Positions 52,181 through 57,672 of a DNA stretch of 64,000 nt are shown here, in pieces. This stretch comes from Moniliophthora roreri (taxonomy: Eukaryota; Basidiomycota; Agaricomycetes; Agaricales; Marasmiaceae): positions 744,001 through 808,000 of the forward strand of contig LATX02000144.1 of the NCBI GenBank assembly GCA_001466705.2. Reading direction: 5' to 3'. The position numbers and the translations under genes were made by a program. The notes beneath the pieces are model-generated. The model was not told the origin of the DNA, did no database searches, and was given only the letters and a program-made list of their open reading frames with translations. Numbering within the stretch: position 1 is the stretch's first letter; every line of letters starts with the position of its first letter.

Positions 52181-53058
52181 AACCTTTCTTTCACATTGCT
52201 TTCACAAATTGCTCACAATTGGAATTGCCAAAATACATTACCTGTTGCAGGACAGGGACCCAAGTGGAACACAGCCACTGGCACATTCCAGGATCCATTG
52301 TGCTGATTGTTCATTTACTTGGGTTTCTAGGAATAAAATGTGGAACTTTTGAGATGGGTACTTCAAACCTGAACCACCATCCCTCTTTCCTCTATTCTAG
52401 TCCTTGTTTCCCAGGCATTTCCCTCTACTTGACTAGGCACTACTCTCCAATGCAACTGCTACTCTGAGGTATGTTAATATGTTCACACAAGTTGTATGGA
52501 ACTGACAAATAATATCTATAGATGGCACCATTTGTTACTGTTGCTACCATCATTGAGAAAGTTTGTTGCAACCTTTAGTCTTTGGAGCCTCCCAGTATGT
52601 ACATATTTTCTTTATACCAGGTCATCTAGCTAATAATGTTTTCCAGAACGGTAGTGTTAAACCTCTCATATCATGCTCAGCAGATGTAGTATGTGTGGTA
52701 CATGTGCAAAATCCCTGCCCTTCACCTAATTCTAACAATTGTCTCTTCCCTAGCTACCATATAGCCTGGCACCTCTGAGCTTCAAGATGCAAGACTGAAT
52801 GGCACAAGTCACTGCCTAGATGTAGGATGGGTAGGATGGGCATAGCTCACTGTAATACTCATGTATATCATTGGTCATAGCTGGTAGTCTGTATTTTGTG
52901 TACTACTAATATAGTTTTTAATGCATCTATCACTACTACTGGTGTAGGATACATATCAGGGATGTACCTAACTGCATGGTTATCTGACAACATTGCACTA
53001 CCTCAATGACAACACTGTATAACACTGTATCATTCTGATATGAAATGGTCATCATATA
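52181..53058. other. AT-rich sequence without a recognised gene
   Basis: One plus-strand frame (52135-52467) gives AFTNCSQLELPKYITCC and further coding-like sequence, but it crosses the end of the neighbouring inverted-repeat element and matches nothing I know. The rest is unassigned. Confidence 0.35.
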
Positions 53059-56000
53059 GTGGTGACTGGCAATTGGCAGGGACCAAAGTGTGGGAACAAT
53101 AGCACTGCCACTCCCACATAGAGAGATGTGATGGTCTCCCCTTGTAGAGCTTCAACCACAGGTACTTTTCCCCTTGAATAGTGTCAAATCAAATGGAAAT
53201 ATAGCTGTATTTGTATTCTTGAGGGCAAAATTTTGACATGAAGTCACACTGAAGAACCGCATGAAAGATCTCTGGATTGCATCCTGGAATTTATACCTTT
53301 TAGGTCAAGAATACGTGTAAAATCACCTAAATTCATGATTCCATACAAAAAACTGCACAAAGAGGGAATGTGTCGCTCCAAATATGGTGCAAAATGAATC
53401 AGCGCATTTTTGTTACATAAGGCAGTCACATTGTGTGCGTCTTCCTCTGCCTCAACAAAAAATGGGTCGTACAGCAAAAAGTCTATGCTACAAAGGCACT
53501 TGAAAACGTTCTCCATGTCAGAAGACTCAAACAAAAAAATTAACTCAGCCAAAGGACACGTCAAACATGTCAAAAACTTCTAAAAACTCTAAAACACCTA
53601 TACCTCCCAATTCACCCACATCACACCTCTGGAAATCATATGACTCAATGGTCAAGTATAAGAATGACCTGCTAGCAAAAGGGAAGAATCTTAGAAGAGT
53701 TATAAAGTGGAGAAATAAGAAAATAGGTGAACTAGAGGTGAAGGTTGAGAAGGCAGAAGCATGGAGAGAGGAGGCGAACGGGGAGGCAGCAAAGGCCCAG
53801 TTTGCATTGGATTGTATTCGAGAGCAGATGTCAACTGTTCTGGATGAAAAGACACAATGGTTAGAGGAGAAGGGCAGGTTGAAGAAGGAGAAACATGCAC
53901 TTAACATGCGAGTTGCACATTTTGACATGCAGAAGGAGAAGGCAATTCAATTAGCGCTAGAAAAGGCGAAAGTCAATACCTGGGCTGTCAAAGAAAAGGA
54001 AGAAATCACTGAGTCATGTCGTATGTTGATACGGGACCTTGTCAGTGCTGAAGTTGGTGTTGAACACATACAAGAAGTCATTCAGATGGTTGCTAATGCA
54101 TTTGGTGTGGAGGTTGATGGGAGTTTCTGTGTTCGGTCTGTTGGAAGAATTGTCCTTGAGGGTGGAGTAGCAGGACAGGCTCAGATGGCAGAGAACATCA
54201 ATGACTGCACAGGTACATACCTACTATCTCATGTTGAGCAAAACCTAACCAAGAAACCAGGTCTTACGGTCAGTGGCGATGGTACAACTATCAAAAACAT
54301 TAATTTTGAGTCACATCACATGAACTTCAAGACGTCCGATGGCTCAGTGAAGCACTGTTTTGTCAGTATAACACCTGCTGTCAACCATACGGCTCAAACG
54401 CAGCTAGATGGCTGAAAAGAAGTTAGTGAAAACTTCGCCAAGGTGCATCGGGAGGTCTTTGAAGACCGAAAACCCACCTATAACAGTCGCAGTCTCTTCG
54501 CCAAGATGACAGGTGGCAATTCAGACCATTCTGAGGATCAAAAGAAGCTGTTTAAGCTTCTGAAGGCCTACAAGGAGAAAGTTGGGTACGAGCAGCAGGG
54601 GGAGAGTACATTACTCAATATGACACCAGAAGAAGCACTCCCACTCTTGATGGAGATTTACTGGGATGTGGTTGACAAGGCAGGAGGGTTTACGGCATGG
54701 CTGGGTCTCACCCACAATGAGCAGAAACTACAAAATGACAACATATACTTAGAGTTCTGTGAAAGGCTTGGAAAGGAAAGGTTTAATTTACTTTCTGAAA
54801 AGGAAAGGGCAGCTTCAAAGCTGTTCCTATGGGTTGGGTGTGGAATGCACAAGGAAATGAATGCATTCAAAGGAGCAGTTCAATCCATGGAGGAGTGGTG
54901 GAAGGAGAATGAGAGGGAGAAACCACCATGCAAGTTGATGAATCGGGACAATAGGGCAGCTGCAGAGTCAGGGTCATCTGAAGCCGCCACTCAGGCTGTG
55001 GCTGTATCGAAGGGTGGCGCTATAAAGCTGACAGAGTTAGCTGGTGCTGTATTCCATCACAAGGACAAGAAGAAGGGTCAGCAGGACACTGTGAAATACT
55101 TTGCACAACACGTACTTGGGATGCCTATTGTCTTCCCTGATACCAGCAATATCCAGTACCACTGTCACGGTGATGCCAGTTCAGAGCTCCTGGTGAACTA
55201 TGACTTCTACTTCATGCTGTTAGAAATGGTTCGGGACAAAAAAGGAGCAGGAACATTCACAAACCTCGAGCTAAACATGTATACTGGTCTTCAGGATACT
55301 CCAACTATCGAAGAATTGTGTGCTATATCTCTGTATTCACAATCAGTCACCCACCCTTATCTCCGCACAATTCAAGGACCTGAAGGGAACAAAACAAACG
55401 CACCAGATTTGGGTCCTTTGCACAACAGACTCATTTGATTCATTCAAAAAATCATAAATAATCCCAACATCCTTCTCTCCCCCACAGCATCCTTCGAGAC
55501 AGCTACATTTGATGGCAAGAATTGGCAGCGTCCTGAGGTCATTTATGCCATTCAAACACGACTGCCCAACTTACCTCATGTTCGACCATTGACCATCGCC
55601 TGTTTTCATGGTGCATTGACAACCTGGAAGAGATTCCTGGTAGAATTTGCCCCCGGAGGTGAAATTGACAAAGCCACAGCCAATGAACATGCCCATGCAC
55701 CTATACAGGCAACAAATGATGCAAATGAGGGCAGGCTAGGAGGAAAACATTGGGGGACTCACATTAGACCCAATATGACCCATCATCAGCACAATGCGCA
55801 AGCAACCTACAAGACAAATAGTGTTCATGAGTAGATTTCGAAAATGGACTACAAATCAAGGACTAACCTCAAGAAAGTTGCCTGTAAACAGGACTCATTG
55901 CAGTTGATGAAAAGGTTCTGTGAAAAACAGGCAGCGCACAATGCAAGGGTTGCTGGCAAAAATAAGGTTAGGTTGGCACTCTGCAAGGAAAGAGCTGAGA

Positions 56001-56525
56001 AGAGGGCTGCTGTAATTGCTTCCACAGTTGCCATTTCTGATGTCAACATTGTGGAATGCCTCAGAGTCAAGGAACTTGACATACAATTGAGGTGGCACCA
56101 TGCTCAGGGTAGTAAATTACCTGTTGGTATTGAGAAGAAGAACAGGCAGGAAAAGCAGACTGTATTGAAAGAATTGGTTCAGACATACCTAGCACATTCA
56201 CAGCCATCCCAGTCACAAGCAGATGTGGATATGGACAGTGTGGGAGAGTCTGAAAGTGAGGATTCCAGAGTAGAAGGGAGTAATGTGGAGATGTCAAGAG
56301 AAGATGAGTACTCGGAGACTTCTGATGAAGAATAAAGCATACAATCATATTCTATTGGCCTTACACTACCACTTACACAACCTAGAGCAACAGTATAGTA
56401 GAGGAAATACAGATAATCAAAGGGTATAGTTGAGATCAAGACGTGGACCATCGATTTGCACCGTCGTCACGGGTGATGGCTTAGTAAGCCTTCACATTCC
56501 CACCCAGCGAATTGCCAGTCACCAC
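53059..56525 (+). mobile_element. 3.47-kb DNA transposon candidate of an undescribed type
   Basis: 23-bp terminal inverted repeats (53059-53081 and 56503-56525) match at 21 of 23 positions, starting GTGGTGACTGGCAATT. A direct repeat ATATA lies just outside each end (53054-53058, 56526-56530). Between them is one long plus-strand reading frame (53567-56335) of a widespread Agaricomycete family. The ends do not match the CAGTG, CACTA or TA-flanked patterns of hAT, CMC or Tc1-type elements. Confidence 0.7.
53567..56335 (+). pseudogene. Transposase-like protein of uncharacterised Agaricomycete family (922 codons, three stops)
   Basis: A single intronless frame starting MSKTSKNSKTPIPPNS. A coiled-coil, Lys/Glu-rich N-terminal third (about residues 25-160) precedes the conserved core: TVSGDGTTIKNINFESHH, LFLWVGCGMHKEMNAFKG, LMNRDNRAA, FPDTSNIQYHCHGD, DLGPLHNRLI, FHGALTTWKRF, FAPGGEIDKAT and TNDANEGRLGG. 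It ends in an acidic Ser-rich tail. The invariant Asp in SGDGT, Asp in NRDN or PDTSN and Glu in DANEG could form a DDE-type catalytic triad; that is inference. Stops at 54413, 55436 and 55832 interrupt it (the first from Trp, the second probably from Arg). I recognise the family as a common hypothetical protein but know no function for it. Confidence 0.75.
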
Positions 56526-57672
56526 ATATAGAATCTAGAGAAGGTATTGTGACATGTGATCAGAAAGGTGTAGAGTTATCGTTTGCTCGCCTTACATGCC
56601 ATGAATCCTGATGCTTGACCCCCCATGCCATTCAACTGCCTTTTGCCTTACCATATGGCACAGAAAAGGTATGAAAGGTATGGGATTATAACAGAAGGCA
56701 GGACATTACACTGCCATGATGACAGTGAGTAGTAAGCATTTGGGTCTCGGCTTTGTTGATGTCTTTCATGGCAGTCCATTTACCGGGGTCCAATGTAGTC
56801 TTATTGCTGAATATGAAGGTTCAGCTGTATATGCTCACTTCTGATCGAGGCAATTTGTCAATAGATGTAAATACCCTTTTTTGGCTGAATTCATGTGCAT
56901 CTTTCCCACACAGAAGTCTTAGGGCTTTTTACAATAATATTCACTTCCTGTGTGGAACTCTTGGTTGTTGCTCTTTGTTCACCACCTTTTAGTGTTGATC
57001 CTCATTGTTCCTTCTCTAAGGTGATAAGCCATTTCATTGCTTCCCTCCCTGCACTGATGGCTACTTCACCAAATGCTCAGCTTCCTTTGACTGTCACATT
57101 GGTGACCATTCAGTTTGTAAACTTGCCTCTTGTGCACTCCAATCGGGATGTTGTATTCAGGGTGGACTTTATAGCCTTTGTTTGTGAGAATGGGGGTGAC
57201 AGCATTCTTTGGGGTTTATGTTCAATTGATGGTGTGTCAATAATTTTACATTTCATGCTGCTTTTTTAATGGGTTTAGGTGTGAATTTGATTGGCTTTTC
57301 ATGTTTGTTTGACACCAGATACTCTCAAACTTTTCTTTTCCAAGCCTCTAACAAATTCTGATAGAAAGCTTCAAAGAACAAATGCTCATGCTATCATCCT
57401 TCGAAATTGACTGAAACCAGCAGCATTACAAGCTGCAGAATAGCTCAAAACTGTCCTTGAGCCATTCTAGCCTTTCAACAACCTAAGTTTGAATATCCAC
57501 TCTCACCCAGGATCTTGATGAATCAACAGCACATGAGCAAGCAAAGAAAGCTGTCCATGCCTTTTACATGTTGGAGCCAGTCACTATGTTAATTTGTCTA
57601 AGATAAAACTAATGGAAAACTACCCAAAAGATAACCTCCAAAAGTCTAACTCAGGTTGTTGTGCAAGTGTGG
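56526..57672. other. AT-rich sequence, no gene recognised
   Basis: Only short frames. One of 124 codons (56895-57269) has hydrophobic stretches but no recognisable family. Confidence 0.35.

Follow-up and report, generated by a model that had tools for sequence, protein, structure and literature searches.

Transposases of the hAT superfamily (Hermes, hobo/Ac/Tam3) combine an RNase H core, which carries D, D, a CxxH motif after strand 5 and E, with a helical insertion before the E helix. They have an N-terminal BED zinc finger and a C-terminal dimerisation region (PF05699), the target duplication is usually 8 bp, and the ends of the elements start with YARNG. Kojima (2025) described hAT5, hAT6, and hAT7 with duplications of 5, 6, and 7 bp, hAT7 being found in rust fungi (PMC12730594). 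Here we analyzed a 64,000-nucleotide window of the Moniliophthora roreri genome (C73:744001-808000 of the 59.4-Mb assembly; the contig labels C1 to C151 all refer to this genome). Positions 53060-56524 very probably represent a cut-and-paste DNA transposon, now dead, whose single gene coded for a DDE transposase (Table 1). The predicted fold would place its protein family next to hAT, and we regard it as a new hAT-like lineage with roughly an even chance of deserving superfamily rank. A first-pass annotation had proposed a DNA transposon and taken the protein family for its transposase; this proposal is supported by a second insertion, a third relative with similar ends, paralogous empty sites, and a predicted RNase H-like core.

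The window copy ends in inverted repeats of 22 bp, matching at 20 of 22 positions, with the tips TGG..CCA. The first-pass annotation had drawn the inverted ends at 53059-53081 and 56503-56525, with 21 of 23 matches, and they were found there. The outermost G/C, however, belongs to the target duplication and is not the tip of the inverted repeat, because the second copy has CTGATAA and then TGGTGAC on both sides. Likewise, the direct repeat that had been given as ATATA is in fact the 7-bp CATATAG, and the flanking repeat reaches 7 bp at all three loci examined (the window and contigs C125 and C80). The second copy, C125:217223-219966, is 96% identical to the window copy and has the same edges; relative to it, 711 bp plus 10 bp are missing.

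The C125 copy interrupts a near-palindromic small repeat of roughly 360 bp, and this provides empty sites. Nine loci of the repeat (C119, C108, C34, C78, C82 twice, C110, and C72 twice) are uninterrupted and have the 7 bases once, one arm of the C108 repeat reading CTAATAA. The right flank matched 12 loci beyond C125, namely these nine, C1, where the host repeat is lacking, and C72:684243 and C34:313122, which were left out. The empty sites are paralogous and not orthologous. The search for empty sites suggested earlier was successful at the host repeat of the C125 copy. For the window copy, no empty allele was seen: its left flank is present at C73 and C55 alone, and the element occupies the site in both. 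Contig C55 (C55:1-16937) was rejected as a source of independent copies, since it looks chimeric or misassembled: it contains a C125-type copy, an N, the left flank of the window copy, and another copy of the C125 type that is cut off by the contig end. The host repeat (C125:217201-220319) is itself a near-palindromic miniature inverted-repeat transposable element (MITE) of about 360 bp, CACTGGGTGC...GCACCCAGTG, with a 3-bp duplication TTA judged by eye. It has at least nine further copies, and at C1:85376-85515 there is a site from which the MITE itself is absent.

The predicted structure is consistent with a transposase. As had been anticipated, an RNase H-like core was predicted, here in two models, with inserted helices separating strand 5 from the E helix. 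The motifs SGDGT, NRDN, PDTSN, and NDANEG, named earlier as a possible DDE triad, are all present in the frame. As the second catalytic residue, the D of SDHSEDQ is a better candidate than that of NRDN or PDTSN, because it comes immediately after strand 4 in the model. The CxxH motif is invariant in a 42-row alignment (C 42/42, H 42/42). Every motif residue is kept in 38 of the 42 aligned rows; in these, D2 and CxxH are separated by 91-108 residues, with a median of 105, and the models assign the extra residues to helices between strands 4 and 5. The model of a longer family member has a long N-terminal helix of low confidence. In the fold searches, Hermes clearly led all other solved structures with both models, and ISCth4 of the IS256 family was the next solved transposase. 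RAG1 appeared at E 0.28 and 0.036, and the P element and Transib structures were absent among the 50 matches listed.

The protein belongs to a family without a domain assignment. Its closest known protein is from M. roreri (90% identity over 78% of the query region). Altogether 194 proteins matched at E<=1e-3, and a precomputed Pfam domain was present in none of the best 120 of them; a profile search found 224 proteins at E<=0.01, with the same picture among the best 120. In agreement with the first-pass annotation, the named relatives among the best 120 of 194 are hypothetical proteins of mushroom-class fungi; we take all of them to be Agaricomycetes, judging by species names and general knowledge. 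Several species recur many times among the matches listed. When 36 chosen members were compared with Pfam at E<=0.1, none matched transposase, hAT, BED, THAP, KDZ, or Plavaka models, and only 20 scattered weak matches (coiled coils and others) were obtained, none of them shared by more than two members. In a control, matches to the KDZ transposase model PF18758 were abundant in the genome, at 67 places, and the model of the hAT dimerisation region, PF05699, matched 19 places, none of them at the places of this family. In sequence searches of the PDB, the single protein had three matches, at E 0.59-1.1, and the profile had none. No description of the family was present among the matches listed in open-licence PubMed Central papers, Repbase lying outside the scope of the search.

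The comparison with hAT is the closest. The family has the CxxH after strand 5, and its models share the hAT core and the helical insertion before the E helix. The earlier view that the transposase type could not be placed is only partly right, since the 7-bp duplication and the Hermes-like fold set the family beside hAT. We consider it nearly an even chance that the family is a separate eukaryotic DDE superfamily, widespread in mushroom-forming fungi, with TGG..CCA ends, 7-bp duplications, and a transposase with two insertions, a helical block before CxxH and the hAT-type insertion after it. A somewhat smaller yet substantial chance is given to a deep branch inside the hAT superfamily, in which the hAT dimerisation and BED domains would have drifted past the reach of Pfam and the 7-bp duplication would resemble that of rust hAT7. 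Such a branch is favored by the lead of Hermes in the fold searches, by the existence of hAT families with 5, 6, and 7 bp as described in PMC12730594, and by the ends: the family's ends begin with TGG or TAG, and T(G/A)GNR is one or two letters from YARNG (TGGTG 4/5, TAGGA 4/5, TGGGA 3/5). However, the dimerisation region and the BED finger were found in 0 of 36 members at E<=0.1, while PF05699 matched 19 other places in the genome, and the distance from D2 to CxxH, about 105 residues, contrasts with the 21 given for ISCth4 (D241, C262) in the section of PMC7780238 used here. The same source describes in ISCth4 the D, D, CxxH, E set and a helical insertion, both common to the family. The duplication is 7 bp at the window copy and C125 (C80 allows 7 or 8), the usual length in hAT being 8 bp.

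Other superfamilies are more distant. In Kyakuja (KDZ), the two Laccaria families described in PMC12730594 have 7-bp duplications, CA..TG termini, and no inverted repeats. Kyakuja shares the host class Agaricomycetes and the duplication length with our family, but the element here has TGG..CCA tips and 20/22 inverted repeats, and PF18758 matched 0 of 36 members. Dada has 6-7 bp duplications and was grouped (D/CxxH) with hAT, MuDR, P, Kolobok, and IS256; in Dada of Laccaria and Ectocarpus an exonuclease lies between the second D and DxxH, Dada-U6 and Dada-U1 are presented as having no terminal inverted repeats, and insertion of Dada is directed to small RNA genes, according to the parts of PMC3706591 consulted. 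The extra domain past the second D parallels the insert before CxxH in our family, whereas the three insertion sites here are all outside tRNA and Rfam matches, of which the closest, a tRNA, is about 3 kb from the C125 site. The EnSpm, Plavaka, and Transib (CMCT) transposases are DDE enzymes like the proposed one; Plavaka occurs in mushrooms, and CMCT duplications are 2-5 bp (PMC12730594, in the passages cited), compared with 7 bp here. The CMCT signature C(2)C plus H(3-4)H between D2 and E is not conserved in the family, in which C300 and C301 are the only C columns at >=80% in this interval and the H columns H303, H372, and H490 are not spaced 3-4 apart, and no transposase model of Pfam matched the 36 members. 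The THAP domain of the P element was likewise found in 0 of 36 members.

The length of the duplication was weighed separately. It is quite unlikely that it is 5 bp, with element ends GTGGTGAC. The window and C80 copies are compatible with 5 or 7 bp, their targets having the form C...G, but the C125 flanks (...GCAGGAT CTGATAA, TGGTGAC ... GTCACCA, CTGATAA CTCTCTG) would then require mismatched left and right tips (ATGG vs. GTGG), whereas the 7-bp reading gives perfect tips, and all three loci extend the repeat to 7 bp. The C125 copy fixes the duplication at 7 bp. The genome also has five divergent relatives, 31-42% identical in the part that matched. In one of them, C80:103224-106881, inverted ends adjoin the 7-bp repeat CAGAAAG. 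The left end is TAGGAGTGGGCAATT and the right end, read inward, TGGGAGTGGGCATTG; they match at 13/16 positions with the 7-bp reading or 15/18 with the 5-bp reading, and an 8-bp repeat, CAGAAAGT, is possible as well. These ends are similar to the TGGTGACTGGCAATT of the window element.

The C80 relative also bears on the proposal that the element is non-autonomous, mobilized by another transposase, and that the conserved protein comes from a fungal gene picked up by the element. The KDZ and hAT matches of the genome (67 and 19 places) could provide such an activity, but the proposal is very improbable: the C80 protein, 36% identical to that of the window element, lies between similar ends with an equal duplication length, and the family has conserved DDE residues and a fold predicted to be transposase-like. 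A chance inverted repeat around an ordinary gene, which the first-pass annotation had left open, has a negligible probability, for short AT-rich repeats are common but the top inverted pair with an exact 5-bp flanking repeat in a 7.5-kb stretch matches at 17 of its first 18 bases compared with at most 14/18 when this stretch was simulated 60 times with a first-order Markov model, and the second copy with the same edges and the paralogous empty sites contradict it.

The CxxH histidine belongs to the active site of Hermes, and the CxxH motif of Kat1 is required for hairpin formation, as reported in the relevant part of PMC4763223. The equal residue set in equal places suggests, by analogy, cut-and-paste transposition with flanking hairpins and a 7-bp staggered insertion. 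By this model the protein would move the element: it would bind the 22-bp ends, both strands would be cut beside the ends, probably via hairpins on the flanking DNA, and the free ends would be joined to the target at positions 7 bp apart, giving the 7-bp duplication. The frame was presumably intact at the time of movement. Now it is decayed; the 922-codon frame noted earlier is present but not open, and the C125 copy has lost the start region and has a broken frame too. Transitions account for 102 of the 106 aligned differences between the two copies, which is the expected pattern of cytosine deamination or silencing similar to repeat-induced point mutation.

Table 1. Features of the element in the window (positions counted from the first letter of the window).
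Feature	Position	Strand	Basis
Whole element, degenerate copy, 3465 bp	53060..56524	+	Identical start and stop edges in the C125 copy
Left target site duplication CATATAG	53053..53059	.	Length as for CTGATAA (C125) and CAGAAAG (C80)
Left terminal inverted repeat TGGTGACTGGCAATTGGCAGGG	53060..53081	+	20/22 match with right end; same end at C125
Right terminal inverted repeat, minus-strand reading TGGTGACTGGCAATTCGCTGGG	56503..56524	-	Pairs with left end
Right target site duplication CATATAG	56525..56531	.	Repeats the left-side CATATAG
Transposase frame, 922 codons, three in-frame stops	53567..56335	+	Translation
711-bp stretch present here, absent from C125; start codon and first part of frame	53197..53907	+	Copy comparison
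Proposed catalytic D1 codon (SGDGT)	54278..54280	+	Motif; D aligned in 57/59 relatives; strand 1 of model
In-frame stop TGA	54413..54415	+	Frame reading
Proposed catalytic D2 codon (SDHSEDQ)	54524..54526	+	Motif; D aligned in 57/59 relatives; directly after strand 4
CxxH motif (CGMH)	54839..54850	+	C in 58/59, H in 59/59 relatives; directly after strand 5
In-frame stop TGA	55436..55438	+	Frame reading
Proposed catalytic E codon (NDANEG)	55727..55729	+	Motif; E aligned in 58/59 relatives; start of helix after insertion
In-frame stop TAG	55832..55834	+	Frame reading

Many mushroom genomes hold predicted genes of this family without a domain match. Recognized as a transposase, the family could be taken out of gene counts and masked by repeat annotators, and it would add a hAT-like lineage of unusual architecture. 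In addition, the ends and the duplication length can be used as search features in other genomes, which makes the question of superfamily rank directly testable.

Among the other sequences of the genome, C80-type ends matched exactly nowhere except at both ends of the C80 copy itself; four more places with one mismatch were left aside. At C112:7545-7893 lies a short derivative of the C80 element that is decayed and lacks internal sequence; inverted ends with a flanking repeat were looked for there and not found. The search for ends gave nothing above noise for the relatives on C8, C151, C133, and C68, and two more C133 protein matches at E 0.297 were dropped. A degenerate end pattern, GTGGNNNSTGGCAATT, with one mismatch hit 142 places compared with 71 for the reversed control and was not used. 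Viral contigs gave 89 pattern matches, but no relative is encoded in any of them. A repeat family carrying GTGGACAGTGGCAATT was not counted as copies of the element, since the flank outside the motif seems shared and no partner end was found within 1,001 bases at C45. This repeat family occurs at ten places (C129:18394, C124:304644, C55:7173, C45:932342, C94:421432, C122, C69, C68 twice, and C105), several of which carry GTGGACAGTGGCAATT or a near variant, and three of them are 100% identical over 174 bp.
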